The notes under the pieces: model-generated
Databases searched by the model: none
Seen by the model: the letters and a program-made list of their open reading frames with translations, nothing else
What the model was told of the DNA's origin: nothing
Shown: one piece after another, positions 5,024 through 34,938 of the stretch
How the letters are laid out: every line of letters starts with the position of its first letter
Numbering within the stretch: position 1 is the stretch's first letter
Position numbers and translations under genes: made by a program
Origin: Clostridia bacterium
GTDB lineage: Bacteria; Bacillota; Dehalobacteriia; Dehalobacteriales; Dehalobacteriaceae
NCBI GenBank assembly: GCA_012838175.1
Contig: DUPU01000168.1
Span: 1-50,096, forward strand
Length of the DNA stretch: 50,096 bases
Reading direction: 5' to 3'

Positions 5024-5126
5024 AAACTGGAAAAAATATTTACAAAAAGCTCCTTTTATTGTAATATACAAGTAAATAACATAATAAGCTATCGCAAATT
5101 TAACGGAATATGGCAACTGGATGAAG

Positions 5127-5290
5127 GAATCGGGAGATACCCCTCTAGGGGAGCCGAAGAAGCAAGTTGCAAAACCGTCATTTTGCAATGAACCTTTCAG
5201 GCAAAAAGACCGGGTCCGGACAGATCTCTGAAAAGCCGTACCGCGGCACCGAAGGAGCAACACTTTCCAGTGGAATCTCTCAGGTCAGTT
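5127..5290 (+). promoter_or_regulatory. Tandem glycine riboswitch (two aptamers) upstream of gcvT
   Basis: Two glycine aptamers follow each other. The first (about 5127-5214) contains GGGAGA, the core GCCGAAGAAGCAA at 5152-5164 and TTCAGGCAAAAAGAC at 5196-5210. The second (about 5217-5290) contains ATCTCTGAAAAGCC, the core ACCGAAGGAGCAA at 5248-5260 and TCTCTCAGG at 5276-5284. Core, spacing and the short linker match the gcvT-type cooperative riboswitch (Rfam family RF00504). By analogy with Bacillus gcvT, glycine should turn expression on; I could not define an antiterminator by eye. Upstream, TTGTAA (5059) and CATAAT (5080) are a weak promoter candidate with a short 15-base spacer. Confidence 0.95.
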
Positions 5291-21900: not shown

Positions 21901-23367
21901 CTAGAAGGAAACTATGTTCCGTCCGGCAGTCTTTGCCCGGTACAAGGCCTGGTCTGCCCGTTTCCATAGGGATTCAACAGTATCATCGTTTTGCAGACAT
22001 GAAATACCGATACTCAGAGTAAAGTGAAAATACTCCTTTTTTGTTCTCACTACCAATCGGGAAATATTCTCAATAATACGATTCGCGATAATCTGGGCTG
22101 TCTCCCGGTGGGCATCCAACAAAAGGATGGTAAATTCATCTCCCCCCAGGCGACAAAGGATATCATTTTTTCTGATGACCTTTCTAAGCTCAGCGGCAAC
22201 TGTTTTTAAAATTTTATCACCGATATCATGACCGTACCTGTCATTAATTTCCTTAAACTCGTCAATATCGATCATGAGGCAGGAGAGAGTTCTGTTTTGC
22301 TCCAAAGCATCTTTCACCGCCTGTTGAGACCGTTCATGGAAATATTTCCTGTTATTAATACCGGTCAGGTAATCTGTGGATGCTTCTATTTTAAGCTGCT
22401 GTTGGATTCTTCTTTGAGAAAAGTAATTTACATATAAAATGATAATTGAGATAAGGCAGCTAACCAGAAAAATACCCAGGATGGTGGCCATTGTTTTTTG
22501 GAAAGGTTGCATTACTTCGGTTTTATCAATTAATTGAATGACCCCCCAATTATTTATATCCATCTGATGATAAAGCAAATAATAATCCTTGCCGTTGATT
22601 TCAATTTCTTCGTATTCTTTGCCCTTTTCCTTGATGGAATTAATATAAGGAATCAAATTGGCGATACTGATCATTTCCTTGTTTTTTGGGTTTTCACTGG
22701 TATAGACAACTGTACCGTTGTCGGTAAGCAAGATATTTTCCCCGTTTTTTCCAATAATATGCTCTTTGAGAATAGGTTGAAGAAAATCCAAGGAAATATC
22801 AACGGAGAAAAAACCGATGATCCTGCCGTTTTCCCTGATTGCTTTAATGCAGGAGATAGCTAAAATATTGGTGGTATATTCAAAGTAGGGTGGGGAAAAA
22901 GCTGCTTCCGTAGAATTTGTGGCCGGCTTGTACCAGGGCCTGTTCCGGGCTTCAAAAGATTCATCGGAAATGAGCTCAAAATTATCAAGGTAGAAATTGG
23001 CCGATTCATTGGCTACCCAAGCTAAATATATATGGGGGTTTTTCATTTCAATATCTTTTAAGGTTCTTATTACTCTTTGGTATAGGGGATGGCCGGCAAT
23101 ATCTTCCCTTGTTTTTACCTCCCTGATATAATCTACCAGGTCCTGATTAGCTTCCATTTGTTCGGCCACCAGCTTGGTATCGTGAAAAATTTCCGATATT
23201 TTTATATTGGTTATCTCTGTGGTTAAAACAATATTTCTTAAGGTATCTTCCTTTATCTTGTTATAGACAATATGTTGAATCAGCAAAAATGAGACGGTGA
23301 AAAGCAAAATAATAGTTATCAGGCTTTTTAATAATATAGTTGATTTGAAGATGGACCTGAATTCCAT
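21901..23367 (-). CDS. Membrane diguanylate cyclase with extracellular dCache sensor and GGDEF domain
   Basis: Makes cyclic di-GMP from two GTP in response to an external signal. In order: TM helix (residues 10-30), extracytoplasmic dCache domain (about 35-290) with the signature RNRPWYKPA, PPYFEYTT and FFSVDIS, second TM helix (about 297-322), then GGDEF domain (about 330-488). The active site is intact (RLGGDEF, Gly-Gly-Asp-Glu-Phe at 408-412) and the inhibitory I-site RKND (399-402) precedes it by the usual five residues, so it should be active and feedback-inhibited. The ATG follows GAGGAGG. It starts 18 bases after the betaine-binding lipoprotein gene, so the pair is one operon. Confidence 0.93.
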   Translation of the reverse strand: MEFRSIFKSTILLKSLITIILLFTVSFLLIQHIVYNKIKEDTLRNIVLTTEITNIKISEIFHDTKLVAEQMEANQDLVDYIREVKTREDIAGHPLYQRVIRTLKDIEMKNPHIYLAWVANESANFYLDNFELISDESFEARNRPWYKPATNSTEAAFSPPYFEYTTNILAISCIKAIRENGRIIGFFSVDISLDFLQPILKEHIIGKNGENILLTDNGTVVYTSENPKNKEMISIANLIPYINSIKEKGKEYEEIEINGKDYYLLYHQMDINNWGVIQLIDKTEVMQPFQKTMATILGIFLVSCLISIIILYVNYFSQRRIQQQLKIEASTDYLTGINNRKYFHERSQQAVKDALEQNRTLSCLMIDIDEFKEINDRYGHDIGDKILKTVAAELRKVIRKNDILCRLGGDEFTILLLDAHRETAQIIANRIIENISRLVVRTKKEYFHFTLSIGISCLQNDDTVESLWKRADQALYRAKTAGRNIVSF

Positions 23368-23385
23368 AATTCCTCCTCAGGCTGA

Positions 23386-24255
23386 TTAAAGGGAATATAG
23401 CCATGTATCCACTGTTTCTTTGTGTTCACTTATCCATTTGACAAAAGCTTTTTCCGTGTTATCCCCGCTGTTATTGTTCATTAACAGCAAAAGTTCCACC
23501 AGCTCGTCTTTTTCCAGGTGGAAATTATATAAAAATTCGGCTATTTTGGGGTATTCCCGGGCGAAACCTTTTCGGGTTACAGTATGCAGGTTTTCTTCCC
23601 CGCCGTAAATAAAAAGGGGGTCATCCAAAAAAAACAAATCCCATTGGGCGAATTTCCAGTGAGGAATCCAGCCGGTGACCACAATCCATTCTTTTTTTCC
23701 GATGGCTTCTTCTATTCTTTTTTCCATTTGGTTGCTGCAGCTAGTGCTAAGAGAGAAGTCCAGATTATATTCTTTGATGGCCTTTTGTGTACTTTTGATA
23801 ATGCCTGCCTCGGCTTCGATACCCACTATAGTGCTGTTAAATTTATCTTTATAGGTATTTAATTGGCTTATACTTTCGATTGATACATATGAGGGCACTG
23901 CCAAGCCTGTTCGGGCTCCCCGGAAGTTAACCCCTAAATTTTCAATGTCACTCCCGTACTGGGAGATGAATTTATCATGAGTAATGGGTAGCCAGCAATC
24001 CAGAAAAATATCACATTTATTTTCCGCCAGGTTTTGATATACAGTATCCACATCAGAGTTTATTATTTCCACGGGAAAATTCATTTTTTCTTCCAGAACG
24101 AGTTTGACAATTTCTGTCATACAATAGCATTCCGGCCAATCCACCACTCCGATTTTAATACTTTTTGGCTGGGATTTCCCACATCCGGGGAAAACTAACA
24201 TTGTTACGGTAGTCATTAGTATTAATATAAAAATGAGTTTTCCCCTGAACTTCAT
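23386..24255 (-). CDS. Glycine betaine/proline-betaine type substrate-binding lipoprotein (OpuAC family), no transporter genes
   Basis: A 289-residue binding protein. The ATG at 24255 (AGGTGG five bases upstream) is preferred over a GTG at 24264 that overlaps that site. It has a signal peptide with Cys in FPGCGKS, an atypical but usable lipobox. OpuAC marks: KIGVVDWPECYCMTEIV, DIFLDCWLPITHDKF, GARTGLAVPSY, GIEAEAGI, VTGWIPHWKFAQWDL and LDDPLFIYGGEE; the Trp/aromatic residues are those that cage quaternary ammonium groups. No permease or ATPase gene is adjacent. The only partner is the downstream diguanylate cyclase, so signalling rather than uptake is likely. The exact ligand is unknown. Confidence 0.88.
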   Translation of the reverse strand: MKFRGKLIFILILMTTVTMLVFPGCGKSQPKSIKIGVVDWPECYCMTEIVKLVLEEKMNFPVEIINSDVDTVYQNLAENKCDIFLDCWLPITHDKFISQYGSDIENLGVNFRGARTGLAVPSYVSIESISQLNTYKDKFNSTIVGIEAEAGIIKSTQKAIKEYNLDFSLSTSCSNQMEKRIEEAIGKKEWIVVTGWIPHWKFAQWDLFFLDDPLFIYGGEENLHTVTRKGFAREYPKIAEFLYNFHLEKDELVELLLLMNNNSGDNTEKAFVKWISEHKETVDTWLYSL

Positions 24256-29872: not shown

Positions 29873-29914
29873 CAATCTGAAGGGGAAACAGGCAGGATGA
29901 AGGGAGTGTTTCCG

Positions 29915-31339
29915 GTGGATTATAAATTTTTGCTGGAGTCCATATTAAAGTATTTGGATGAAGGGGTGCTGGTGGTAGACTGTAATGCCAATATTACCTT
30001 TTTTAATGAGCCGGCCACCAATATTGCCGGAATTGATTTAGAAGGTGCGATCGGGAAAAACATTTTGGAGATTTTTCCCGATTTAACTCCGGAAACAAGT
30101 ACTTTTTATCATGTGTTAAGAACCCGGAAGCCCTTAATTGAACACGTACAAACCTATACCAATTACCAGAACAAAAGGGTGACCACCGTTACTACCACGA
30201 TCCCTCTGATTGAAAAGGGTAAATTAATCGGTGCCCTGGAGATATACCGCAGTTTGCACTTGGTAAAAAAACTATCCGACAAAATCATTTCCCTTCAACA
30301 TGAACTTTTCGCCATGCACCGGAACCGGAAAGATTTAAAGGGGAACGGTACTTCATATACCATTGAGGATATTATCGGCAACAGTCCTTCAATGGTCAGG
30401 CTGAAAGACCAAATCTACAAGATTGCCGACAGTTCTTCGCCGGTACTGGTGCTGGGGGAAACAGGCACCGGAAAAGAGATGGTGGTACAAAGCATTCACA
30501 ATGCCGGCATGACCCGGCGGAATAAACCCTTTGTGGCCCAAAACTGCGCCGCCATTCCGGAAGCTTTGTTGGAGGGTATTGTTTTCGGCACCTCCTTAGG
30601 CAGTTTTACCGGTGCTAAGGATAAGCCGGGCCTGTTTGAACTGGCCAACGGGGGCACCTTGTTTTTAGACGAAATAAATTTAATGGACCTGGGTTTGCAG
30701 GCGAAACTTCTCCGGGTTTTGCAGGATGGGGTGGTACGCAGGGTAGGCAGCTCGGAGACGATTAAGGTGGACGTACGGGTAATTGCCGCCACCAATGAGG
30801 ACCCATTAAAATCTGTGGCTGATAGGACTTTGCGAGAGGACCTGTATTACCGGCTTAATGTCATCAGTCTCTTTGTACCTCCTTTGAGAGAGAGAAAAGA
30901 AGATATCCCCCTGTTGGTGGATTATTTTATTAAGAAAAACAACCAGGAACTGAAAAAGAATGTCACTGGGGTAACCAAAGACTGCTTAGAGATGCTCATG
31001 TCTTATGATTGGCCGGGAAATGTTAGGCAGTTGAAATTTGCCATTGAAAGCATCATGAATTTTACGGAAGCTCCGGTTATTGGCAGGGAAGATTTGCCTC
31101 CCCTGATCCGGAATGTCCATGCCGAGGTTCAGAACGAGGAAAACGGGGAATTATCTCCTTCCTTTCAAAGTTCTTTAAAGGAGTCGGTGGAGCTTTTTGA
31201 GAAAAATTTAATTTTATCCGCTTTGAAAGAGTCCCGGGGAAATATTGCTGAAGCGGCCCGCCTCCTGAAAGTCCCCAAACAGACCTTGCATTATAAAATC
31301 CAGAAATACGGAATCCGGATAGAATTTAATCCCAATTAA
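29915..31339 (+). CDS. Sigma-54 dependent transcriptional activator with PAS sensor domain
   Basis: A bacterial enhancer-binding protein. The GTG at 29915 is preferred (AAGGGAG eight bases before); an ATG at 29897 would add six residues. Order: PAS domain (about 1-115: LDEGVLVVDCNANITFFNEPA), AAA+ domain (about 145-380) with Walker A GETGTGKEM, Walker B GGTLFLDEI and arginine-finger region, and a Fis-type HTH at the C-terminus (SRGNIAEAARLLKVPKQTLHYKIQKYGI split around residues 445-470). The sigma-54 contact loop reads GSFTGA instead of GAFTGA. No receiver domain, so a small ligand probably binds the PAS domain. A sigma-54 promoter lies 200 bases downstream, before the glycyl-radical genes it likely controls. 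Confidence 0.93.
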   Translation: MDYKFLLESILKYLDEGVLVVDCNANITFFNEPATNIAGIDLEGAIGKNILEIFPDLTPETSTFYHVLRTRKPLIEHVQTYTNYQNKRVTTVTTTIPLIEKGKLIGALEIYRSLHLVKKLSDKIISLQHELFAMHRNRKDLKGNGTSYTIEDIIGNSPSMVRLKDQIYKIADSSSPVLVLGETGTGKEMVVQSIHNAGMTRRNKPFVAQNCAAIPEALLEGIVFGTSLGSFTGAKDKPGLFELANGGTLFLDEINLMDLGLQAKLLRVLQDGVVRRVGSSETIKVDVRVIAATNEDPLKSVADRTLREDLYYRLNVISLFVPPLRERKEDIPLLVDYFIKKNNQELKKNVTGVTKDCLEMLMSYDWPGNVRQLKFAIESIMNFTEAPVIGREDLPPLIRNVHAEVQNEENGELSPSFQSSLKESVELFEKNLILSALKESRGNIAEAARLLKVPKQTLHYKIQKYGIRIEFNPN

Positions 31340-31357
31340 TACAGGGGCTTCCCTTTA

Positions 31358-31377
31358 ATTTATCTCGTAGGATAAAT
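31358..31377. promoter_or_regulatory. Inverted repeat, candidate activator-binding site
   Basis: ATTTATC-tcgtag-GATAAAT is a perfect 7-bp inverted repeat about 165 bases upstream of the sigma-54 -24 element, a usual distance for an enhancer site. Weaker dyads nearby are GTCC...GGAC at about 31392-31407 and GTCT...AGAC at about 31434-31449. Binding by the adjacent activator is inferred. Confidence 0.35.
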
Positions 31378-31541
31378 CTCCCATATCGTTCGTCCGGAAA
31401 TCGGGACAAAAGCCAAAAATTATGACGTTATTGTCTGAAAATTAAGACTTAAAGGTTAATTCTTTATATCTAAGAAAATATGACATGAGGAGAAAGCCTA
31501 GATGAAAGGTCTGTCAAATATTTTTTATCCTCTTTCTGGAA

Positions 31542-31558
31542 TTGGCATAAGAATTGCT
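31542..31558 (+). promoter_or_regulatory. Sigma-54 (-24/-12) promoter of the glycyl-radical operon
   Basis: TTGGCATAAGAATTGCT: the invariant GG (31544-31545) and GC (31556-31557) are separated by exactly ten bases, with TTGGCA and TTGC as in the consensus TGGCAC-N5-TTGC. It lies 80 bases before the activase start and next to a gene for a sigma-54 activator. Confidence 0.85.
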
Positions 31559-31637
31559 TTATAAATAGTCAGTCCCCCATGAGTTTCCCTAATAATAGTA
31601 GATAGACAGAATTTTTTCATAAATTGAGGTGAGTGTT

Positions 31638-32540
31638 TTGCACCAGGGAAAGGTTTTCAATATTCAGCACTATTCTATTCATGACGGGCCGGGGATTCGT
31701 ACCACGGTTTTTTTAAAGGGTTGTCCTTTAAACTGCCATTGGTGTCATAACCCGGAAAGCATGGATCTAAAGGAACAGATGATTTACCGCATACAAAAAT
31801 GCATTGGCTGCGGGGACTGCATTGTCCATTGCCCGGAAAAAGCCCTGTCCATGGGAGATAACGGAATCATTAGAAATGAAGAACTTTGCACTTTATGTGG
31901 GCGCTGCGGAGAAGTATGCCCTACCAATGCTATGGAAAAGGTGGGGAAAACAGCCTCTGTGGAAGAAATCATGGCAGAAATTGAAAAAGACCAGGTGTTT
32001 TTTGAGGAATCCGGGGGTGGGGTAACCTTTTCCGGAGGCGAGCCCTTGCTCCAGCCGGATTTGTTAATCCCTCTCCTTGACGCTTGTAAAAACAAGGGCA
32101 TTCATACGGCTTTGGATACCTCAGGTTATGCCCGGTGGGAAACATTGCAGGCTGCGGCGGAAAAAACGGATCTATTCCTGTATGATTTAAAGCATATGGA
32201 TCAGGAGGCACATGAAAAATATACCGGTGTCCCTAATACTCTGATTTTAGAAAACCTAATAAAATTGAGCCGGATGCACCAAAATATTTGGATCCGGGTG
32301 CCGGTTATTCCCGGCATTAACGACGGGGAGGAAAACGTCCATAGGATGGGTGAGTTTGTTAAGTCTTTAGGGATTAAGAAACTTTTTCTTCTACCCTATC
32401 ACGATATTGCCGCCGGTAAGTATGCATTATTGGGCAAGCCCTTTTTATTAAAAGGAGTGCGGCCGCCTGCCAAAGAAAAGATGCAGGAGTTGAAGGAATT
32501 AATAGTCCCTTATGGGATAGAAGTAAAGATAGGAGGTTGA
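31638..32540 (+). CDS. Glycyl-radical enzyme activating enzyme (radical SAM)
   Basis: Uses S-adenosylmethionine and a [4Fe-4S] cluster to place the glycyl radical on the enzyme encoded next. The TTG at 31638 is preferred (AGGTGAG five bases upstream, then MHQGKVFNIQHYSIHDGPG); a GTG at 31629 overlaps that site. About 300 residues: radical SAM motif KGCPLNCHWCH (CX3CX2C), an inserted two-cluster ferredoxin domain (KCIGCGDCIVHCPEKAL and LCTLCGRCGEVCPTNAM), TFSGGEPLLQ and YDLKHMD. The ferredoxin insert distinguishes it from pyruvate formate-lyase activase and is normal for activases of dehydratase-type glycyl radical enzymes. Confidence 0.95.
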   Translation: MHQGKVFNIQHYSIHDGPGIRTTVFLKGCPLNCHWCHNPESMDLKEQMIYRIQKCIGCGDCIVHCPEKALSMGDNGIIRNEELCTLCGRCGEVCPTNAMEKVGKTASVEEIMAEIEKDQVFFEESGGGVTFSGGEPLLQPDLLIPLLDACKNKGIHTALDTSGYARWETLQAAAEKTDLFLYDLKHMDQEAHEKYTGVPNTLILENLIKLSRMHQNIWIRVPVIPGINDGEENVHRMGEFVKSLGIKKLFLLPYHDIAAGKYALLGKPFLLKGVRPPAKEKMQELKELIVPYGIEVKIGG

Positions 32541-32577
32541 TGATGGTATGAGTAGTGTGATCAGAAGAGGAATAGGT

Positions 32578-34938
32578 ATGAATGACCGCATTGCTAAGCT
32601 AAGGGAACAAAGTGTCACAACCGAACCTACCCTTTCCATTGAAAGGGCGGTTTTGGTAACCGAAGCCTATAAAAAATATGCTGGCAAGGTTTCCGTTCCC
32701 GTTCTAAGAGCTTTGACCTTTCAACATCTCATGGAAAACAAGACAATCGTCATTAATGACGGGGAGTTAATTGTGGGGGAAAGGGGCCCTGCACCTCAAT
32801 CGGCACCTACCTTTCCGGAACTTTGCTGCCATTCCGTGGAAGACTTTGAAATCATTGACCGGCGGGAGAAAATTTACTTCCGGGTGGATGAGGAAACCAA
32901 GAGAATCCAGAAAGAAGTGATTATTCCTTATTGGCAGGGCAAGTCCATGCGGGATTTGCTTTTTAACAACATGACCGAGGAATGGAAGGAATGCTACGAG
33001 GCAGGCATTTTTACCGAATTTATGGAGCAAAGGGCACCCGGTCATACAGTGGGGGGAGACCAGTATTATAAAAAGGGTTTCCTGGATTTTAAAAAGGAAA
33101 TAGAGGAAGAAATTGCAGCCCTGGATTTCCTCAATGACCCGGATGCTTATGACAAGCAGGAAGAATTAAAGGCCATGGCCATCGCCTGTGATGCCATCAT
33201 CACCCTTGGCCGGCGTTACCGGGAACTGGCTTTGGAACTGGCGGAAAAAGAAACGGATCCGGTGAGAAAGAAGGAGCTGGAGCAAATAGGAGAAGTATGC
33301 GGCAGAGTGCCCGCTTATGCTCCCAGGACTTTTTGGGAGGCTATACAAATGTACTGGTTTGTGCATTTAGGGGTAGTTACGGAATTAAATACCTGGGATT
33401 CCTTCTGTCCCGGAAAATTGGACCAGCATCTTTATCCCTTTTATCAAAAAGAGGTAGCTGCCGGTACCCTGGATCGGGACCGGGCGAAGGAACTGCTGGA
33501 ATGCTTCTGGGTTAAGGTGAATAACCAGCCGGCTCCTCCCAAGGTGGGCATAACATTAAAGGAAAGCGGCACATATACGGATTTCTGCAATATCAATATC
33601 GGTGGAATTAAACCGGACGGTTCCGACGGGGTGAATGAGATTTCCTATCTTCTCCTGGAGATTATTGATGAAATGCGCATTCTACAGCCCAGTACCAACG
33701 TGCAGGTCAGCCGCAAAAATCCGGACCGGTTTCTCATGAAAGCTTTGAAAGTAATTCGGGAAGGGATGGGATTCCCCTCCGTCTTTAATACGGACGCCGT
33801 CGTGGAAGAATTGTTGCGCCAGGGAAAAACCCTGGAGGATGCCCGCACCGGTGGCACCAGCGGCTGCGTGGAAGTAGGGTGCTTCGGGAAAGAAGCCTAT
33901 ATTTTAACCGGCTACTTTAACCTGCCCAAGGTTTTGGAAATAACCCTCCATAACGGGACGGATCCGCGGACAGGAAAGAAGATTGGTATCGAAACCGGAG
34001 ACCCCTTGAAATTTTCTTCCTTTGATGAATTAATGGAAGCCTTTAAAAAGCAATTGCATCATTTTGTGGAGATTAAAATCCGCGGCAACCAGGTAATAGA
34101 AAAGCTTTATGCCAAATACATGCCGGCCCCCTTTATGTCGGTGATTATCGATGATTGCATCAAAAAAGGAAAAGACTACAACAATGGGGGTGCCCGCTAT
34201 AATACCCGCTATATTCAGGGAGTGGGCATTGCCAGCATTACCGATTCCCTTTCCGCCATCAGGTATCATGTTTTTGACCATAAGAACCTGACCATGGAAA
34301 AGCTTTTGGATACTTTGGCCAAGAATTTCGAGGGAGAAGAAAAAATTCGCCAGATGCTCTTAAATAAAACGCCCAAATACGGCAATGACGATGATTATGC
34401 CGACAGCATTATGCTCCAGGTCTTTAACGCCTACCATGATGAAATTAACGGGCGGAAAACCGTTTCCGGAGGCAAATATATTGTGGAAATGCTGCCTACC
34501 ACCTGCCATGTTTACTTTGGTTCTGTAATGGGTGCATCCCCTGACGGCAGATTAGCCGGGATGCCTTTGTCGGAAGGGATTTCCCCCGTTCAGGGAGCGG
34601 ACCGGAAAGGACCTACAGGAGTGATTAAGTCGGCGGCGAAAATGGACCATTTAAGAACCGGGGGTACTTTGCTGAATCAAAAGTTTACTCCTCAGCTTTT
34701 GGCAGATGAGGAGGGCCTGACGAAGGTGAAGGATTTAATCCGCACTTACTTTAAATTAGACGGGCATCATATCCAGTTTAACGTGGTCAGTGCGGATACC
34801 CTCCGCGATGCGCAAAAGAATCCGGACAAATACAGCAGCCTTATTGTCCGGGTGGCCGGATACAGCGATTACTTCAATAATCTGGATAAGGCTCTGCAGG
34901 ATGAAATTATTACCCGGACGGAGCATAAAAGCTTTTAA
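32578..34938 (+). CDS. hypD: Glycyl radical enzyme, probable trans-4-hydroxy-L-proline dehydratase
   Basis: Likely removes water from trans-4-hydroxy-L-proline to give pyrroline-5-carboxylate. Start at 32578 (AGAGGA six bases before, MNDRIAKLREQS); an ATG at 32548, 11 bases after AGGAGG, adds ten residues. In the long numbering: radical Cys440 and Glu442 in GTSGCVEVG, glycyl radical Gly771 in RVAGYSDYF. HypD residues I recall from Clostridioides (F152, H160, D278, S334, F340, C434, E436, Y450, T645, G765) all have identical counterparts here at a constant offset of six. CVE rather than CC excludes pyruvate formate-lyase; absence of CVEP argues against choline lyase. No proC is adjacent. Substrate is inferred, family is certain. 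Confidence 0.85.
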   Translation: MNDRIAKLREQSVTTEPTLSIERAVLVTEAYKKYAGKVSVPVLRALTFQHLMENKTIVINDGELIVGERGPAPQSAPTFPELCCHSVEDFEIIDRREKIYFRVDEETKRIQKEVIIPYWQGKSMRDLLFNNMTEEWKECYEAGIFTEFMEQRAPGHTVGGDQYYKKGFLDFKKEIEEEIAALDFLNDPDAYDKQEELKAMAIACDAIITLGRRYRELALELAEKETDPVRKKELEQIGEVCGRVPAYAPRTFWEAIQMYWFVHLGVVTELNTWDSFCPGKLDQHLYPFYQKEVAAGTLDRDRAKELLECFWVKVNNQPAPPKVGITLKESGTYTDFCNINIGGIKPDGSDGVNEISYLLLEIIDEMRILQPSTNVQVSRKNPDRFLMKALKVIREGMGFPSVFNTDAVVEELLRQGKTLEDARTGGTSGCVEVGCFGKEAYILTGYFNLPKVLEITLHNGTDPRTGKKIGIETGDPLKFSSFDELMEAFKKQLHHFVEIKIRGNQVIEKLYAKYMPAPFMSVIIDDCIKKGKDYNNGGARYNTRYIQGVGIASITDSLSAIRYHVFDHKNLTMEKLLDTLAKNFEGEEKIRQMLLNKTPKYGNDDDYADSIMLQVFNAYHDEINGRKTVSGGKYIVEMLPTTCHVYFGSVMGASPDGRLAGMPLSEGISPVQGADRKGPTGVIKSAAKMDHLRTGGTLLNQKFTPQLLADEEGLTKVKDLIRTYFKLDGHHIQFNVVSADTLRDAQKNPDKYSSLIVRVAGYSDYFNNLDKALQDEIITRTEHKSF

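Follow-up and report, generated by a model that had tools for sequence, protein, structure and literature searches.

The window studied, i.e., the whole 50,096-nucleotide stretch of DNA analysed here, is contig C120 of a host assembly of 2.41 Mb, which is divided into 232 contigs and is 96% complete. It contains two adjacent genes on the reverse strand. The upstream gene (positions 23,386–24,255, −) encodes an OpuAC-family betaine-binding lipoprotein of 289 aa with a predicted signal peptide and Cys25, recognised by Pfam OpuAC and an AlphaFold2 model. The length is counted from an ATG codon, and an in-frame GTG is also found 9 bases upstream. The downstream gene (21,901–23,367, −) encodes a transmembrane dCache_1-GGDEF diguanylate cyclase of 488 aa, which has neither HAMP nor EAL domains according to Pfam. 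Direct reading of the 18-base intergenic gap (23,368–23,385, −) reveals the Shine–Dalgarno sequence GAGGAGG (23,378–23,372), which precedes the cyclase ATG by four bases and makes a perfect ribosome-binding site. Given the short gap and the GAGGAGG ahead of the cyclase ATG, the two genes would very probably form one transcript.

The pair is flanked by ligA (convergent) and a ygbA-like gene (divergent). No opuAA, opuAB or other betaine transporter genes were found around it among the ORFs and Pfam matches of the window, no Rfam elements were detected near it, and no promoter or terminator signal near the pair rose above the shuffles. The preliminary description of the locus, in which a diguanylate cyclase gene begins 18 bases after an OpuAC lipoprotein gene, was confirmed with ORFs and Pfam. 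The intact GGDEF motif and I-site ascribed to the cyclase were recognised on motif reading, and the reported lack of an ABC permease or ATPase also stood, with no OpuA permease or ATPase present within the window.

Binding protein and cyclase

The substrate-binding protein (SBP) matches Pfam OpuAC with an E-value of 5.5e-55. Its lipobox, F-P-G-C25, is slightly non-canonical; the orthologue in the related genome G003, described below, has L-S-G-C. In the alignment with Bacillus subtilis OpuAC (2b4l), residues W40, W88, W196, H93 and G151-I152 correspond. We take the three tryptophans to form the Trp cage, with the carboxylate site made up of H93, G151 and I152. The AlphaFold2 model (mean pLDDT 91) has the OpuAC fold, and the folds closest to it are ProX (3tmg) and the glycine betaine-bound lactococcal OpuAC (3l6h/3l6g). 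Together, the aligned betaine-site residues and the closest folds of the model suggest that betaine or a closely related compound is very likely the ligand. The protein thus shares the Pfam family, fold and aligned betaine-site residues with the binding proteins of OpuA/ProU systems (OpuAC, ProX), but it differs from them in being encoded without a permease or ATPase and in belonging to a separate, long-branched clade.

The cyclase features two hydrophobic segments, near residues 5–36 and 290–318, and two Pfam domains, dCache_1 (E = 5.9e-21) and GGDEF (E = 1.5e-48). The extracellular dCache_1 domain comprises residues 44–277 (22,537–23,238, −), also a confident region of the structure model, and the GGDEF catalytic domain lies at 21,916–22,383 (−). 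The GGDEF motif is intact (residues 408–412), and an RxxD I-site (RKND) is located five residues upstream, with both motifs at 22,173–22,132. Hence, both parts of the active-cyclase signature are present. No EAL domain was found in the protein by Pfam, which leaves GGDEF only, so the enzyme should be able only to make c-di-GMP, unlike MbaA (see below). PilZ effectors are present in the host genome.

The sensor domain carries a motif of its own. The dCache_1AA pattern [YFWL]x4[RK]xW[YFW]..[YFW]..D has been defined experimentally (PMC11237719), and the match at 22,798–22,956 (−) reads F138-x4-R143-x-W145-Y146-x14-Y161-x28-D190. All six residues (F138, R143, W145, Y146, Y161 and D190) are found in both orthologous cyclases. 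The AA-specific F138 and R143 are among them, at the place where the dCache_1AM definition puts the AM motif. The structure model was used for the dCache part only, the GGDEF part being unreliable and set aside because the alignment consists mostly of chemoreceptors. The confident dCache model resembles the amino-acid receptors PscC, Tlp3, Mlp24/37, CtaA and PctA, and the Aeromonas caviae diguanylate cyclase 7k5n, with proline bound, is also among the closest folds. PDB 6pxy, considered at one stage as a quaternary-amine receptor, is in fact CtaA with alanine. The nearest dCache relative in the phylum (genome G084, 37%) belongs to a chemoreceptor with no adjoining SBP. Taken together, the motif, the amino-acid-receptor folds and this SBP-free relative indicate, as judged by sequence and model, that an amino acid should be able to bind to the cyclase directly.

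As the cyclase may have a ligand of its own, delivery by the SBP is not needed to explain it. The cyclase might sense an amino acid (e.g., proline, glycine or a relative) directly via its dCache_1AA domain, while the co-expressed OpuAC protein would be a separate scavenger or part of a transporter. This explanation, which we consider unlikely, draws on the complete motif conserved in the orthologue, on the G084 chemoreceptor, on the folds of the amino-acid receptors and of 7k5n, and on the OpuB-type ATPase and permease encoded in the genome. However, it explains neither the joint travel of both genes between different flanks nor the departure of the SBP lineage from the OpuA operon, and the search of the genome yielded no OpuA-type permease. 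The domain, the complete motif and a similar fold place the cyclase beside the known dCache_1AA sensors, of which 7k5n was compared by fold; those sensors bind the ligand directly without a linked binding protein, unlike the pair described here.

Two other loci of the window concern amino acids. A glycine riboswitch aptamer (5,121–5,222, +; Rfam, 59.6 bits) lies upstream of a gcvT-gcvPB operon. At 29,897–34,938 (+), a gene for a PrdR-like sigma-54 regulator is followed by those for the trans-4-hydroxy-L-proline dehydratase activase and the dehydratase, of which the dehydratase only reaches the NCBIfam equivalog cut-off. These loci place glycine and proline metabolism close at hand, which is suggestive only.

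Conservation and genomic context of the pair

Three other members of the family were compared. G003, a single-contig genome of 6.44 Mb representing a second genus, has the same two genes adjacent with a gap of 17 bases, and both the SBP and the cyclase are 60% identical to those of the window. There, the pair is flanked by Rnf genes and ftsEX (names read by eye from the sequences), as against ligA and ygbA here. The only OpuAC of this type in G003 is the cyclase-linked one. The pair was absent from G001 (3.8 Mb; no match) and from G002, in which OpuAC genes adjoin an OpuA ATPase gene and one belongs to a full operon. Since the conserved pair of the second genus has different flanks, the pairing is more than chance. 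In both genomes, the pair has a lower G+C content than its flanks (38–40% against 48–50%, and 43% against 49–50%), which suits a mobile unit or merely the composition of exported proteins.

A widespread occurrence of the pair was not borne out. No further orthologous pair emerged when P0001 was compared with two small classes, 61 relatives and 399 genomes of the phylum, and a search of these 399 genomes with the dCache domain found no orthologous cyclase. The adjacency of SBP and cyclase, a hallmark of systems of the NspS–MbaA type, is conserved in two genera, and this conserved adjacency without opuAA/AB, which the preliminary description had proposed to look for, was found within one family only. 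The distribution known so far is narrow (two of the four genomes compared), which speaks against a signalling role of the pair.

In a tree of 89 OpuAC proteins, the two cyclase-linked SBPs stand apart from 66 transporter-linked OpuACs as a clade with 100/100 support, whose stem measures 0.89 changes per column. Of 118 OpuAC ORFs from across the phylum, 85 lie no more than four genes from an OpuAB-type permease, and the remaining 33 have none that near. A GGDEF gene directly adjoins OpuAC on the same strand only in G003 and at one locus of genome G047. The latter (L063:4129–7409, −) contains a dCache-HAMP-GGDEF-EAL gene, 18 bases and then a circularly permuted OpuAC gene, with no OpuA-type permease near it, and is a close structural parallel of NspS–MbaA. 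It was rejected as proof of a wider rule: it lacks the amino-acid motif and is a single case, which is not significant when chance alone would give about 0.4 cyclase neighbours, a rough estimate based on the 118 ORFs and about 8 GGDEF genes in about 2,400.

Several further arrangements of OpuAC were observed. A 643-aa protein with a C-terminal permuted OpuAC is encoded near the G047 pair (L063, 9693–11,624). The phylum relatives G047, G093, G131 and G298 have many OpuACs without a nearby permease, some of them beside S-adenosylhomocysteine hydrolase genes (L115, L124). Two chemoreceptors of ~660 aa (L141:2312–4294, +; L148:4276–6261, −) have an N-terminal half with the MCP signalling domain and a C-terminally fused OpuAC, a domain order that is odd for an extracellular binding domain; each adjoins a second MCP.

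Orphan OpuACs are, therefore, not rare (the 33 ORFs mentioned above), and those with neighbours checked adjoin mostly unrelated metabolic genes. Both facts fit an SBP left behind, as a relic or a bystander, when an OpuA system was lost, and standing by chance ahead of a cyclase gene. We regard this as quite improbable, because both genes are intact, the binding and catalytic residues have been preserved between genera at an identity of about 60%, and the spacing of 17–18 bases is retained in both pairs.

The host genome encodes three OpuAC-domain proteins, the other two being OpuBC-like. The preliminary description had named a cognate permease elsewhere as evidence against a signalling role. 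No OpuAB-like permease was found among the 16 BPD permease matches of the genome, checked in context; these look methionine-, amino-acid-, peptide-, polyamine- or OpuB-type, the types being read from context only and not from family models. The best match to OpuAB is 28% over about 160 aa and comes from a small contig that encodes an OpuB-type pair of ATPase and permease. Two points weigh against a transporter-free SBP: this OpuB-type pair might accept it, and an OpuA-type permease, not found in the 96% complete assembly, could be missing from it, the genome being in 232 contigs. The same genome also encodes an SBP_bac_3 domain fused to GGDEF in one chain (L238:1471–2973, −; contig C78).

Methylated amines in the host

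The host genome contains about 31 matches to MttB-family methyltransferases, a family found in 1 of 14 control genomes. Matches are located on contigs C111, C86, C152, C126 and C93, and several have an in-frame TAG. An in-frame TAG is expected in pyrrolysine-type trimethylamine methyltransferases. The number of MttB matches suggests that methylated amines are probably a growth substrate of the host. Fragments of BCCT carriers are also present. The related genome G003 is probably that of 'Ca. Formimonas warabiya', a betaine fermenter. 'Ca. Formimonas warabiya' DCMF ferments glycine betaine and choline (PMC8163858, PMC9768040); when it grows on betaine, BCCT carriers, by which the betaine is taken up, rank among its most abundant proteins (PMC9768040). 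The MttB matches, the BCCT fragments and the probable betaine-fermenting relative make it plausible that quaternary amines serve the host as both nutrient and signal.

Known systems and the proposed signalling unit

Chemoreceptors, kinases and diguanylate cyclases are all known targets of SBPs (PMC9602780). NspS acts on MbaA (PMC8967002), a system of Vibrio cholerae, and also of Sinorhizobium, whose SBP, like that of the pair, belongs with a membrane c-di-GMP enzyme rather than with a transporter. It differs in its polyamine ligands, in the periplasmic SBP of a Gram-negative cell and in the bifunctional GGDEF-EAL enzyme, whereas the pair combines an OpuAC protein, a predicted lipoprotein, with GGDEF only. 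The NspS–MbaA precedent invoked in the preliminary description holds as a pair of SBP and c-di-GMP enzyme, but it is not the sole one and the EAL domain has no counterpart here.

CosB of Halobacterium salinarum serves the transducer CosT for compatible solutes and co-purifies with transducers (PMC3579733, PMC4230888). Here, the likeness is that of a binding protein for betaine/trimethylammonium-type compatible solutes acting on a membrane transducer, a contact that for our pair is a proposal. CosB–CosT, however, is archaeal and its output is chemotaxis and not c-di-GMP; CosB resembles OpuBC/OpuCC, while the SBP of the pair is an OpuA-type OpuAC. In Salmonella, the arginine response of the dCache_1 diguanylate cyclase STM1987 needs periplasmic ArtI (PMC8846402). 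Both cases join a dCache_1 cyclase with a binding protein, but the signal of STM1987 is arginine and ArtI is a putative periplasmic arginine-binding protein, while the SBP here is permease-free and encoded beside the cyclase. ArtI is part of a transporter.

Both a betaine-binding protein with a transducer (CosB–CosT) and an SBP with a c-di-GMP enzyme (NspS–MbaA, ArtI–STM1987) are, hence, already known. A literature search, covering papers available without subscription, found no description of an OpuAC–diguanylate cyclase pair. On the best reading of the sequences, the pair would be a unit of SBP and receptor that works without a transporter and controls c-di-GMP, possibly with two inputs.

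We consider it moderately probable that the permease-free lipoprotein and the dCache cyclase form one signalling unit, in which an external quaternary amine sets c-di-GMP. The tethered lipoprotein would close around glycine betaine, or proline betaine or choline, outside the cell; once loaded, it would dock on the dCache domain and change the activity of the cyclase, and the external amine would thereby set the c-di-GMP level. An amino acid bound directly in the dCache pocket may provide a second input. We infer the complex, its ligands, the sign of its effect and the logic of two inputs alike. The preliminary description had proposed the same path from amine to c-di-GMP. It gains from the conserved adjacency, the genome-wide absence of an OpuA permease, the intact betaine residues and cyclase, and the betaine/methylamine background, but it had missed the dCache_1AA motif of the cyclase. 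Since this motif suggests direct binding of a small ligand, delivery by the SBP is dispensable, which weakens the proposal.

The sign of the effect might be opposite, with the lipoprotein competing for or sequestering the ligand, or binding the cyclase in its empty form, so that betaine lowers c-di-GMP. In NspS–MbaA, the outcome is determined by the ligand-bound state that associates (PMC8967002). The cyclase, unlike MbaA, has no EAL domain to switch to, and we judge a reversed sign highly improbable. A two-input receptor, in which the lipoprotein reports quaternary amines and an amino acid binds directly to the same dCache domain, so that a methylamine/Stickland-type fermenter integrates both classes of growth substrate, is a tentative and somewhat unlikely extension of the proposed signalling unit.

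For the question, left open by ArtI–STM1987, of whether a dCache domain with an amino-acid pocket of its own can also be acted on by an SBP, the pair offers a clean test case. If the proposed signalling unit is real, signalling from SBP to receptor would also include, in a Gram-positive lineage, a betaine-binding lipoprotein of the OpuAC family with c-di-GMP as its output, and quaternary amines would be tied to c-di-GMP in the anaerobes that use them as fermentation substrates.
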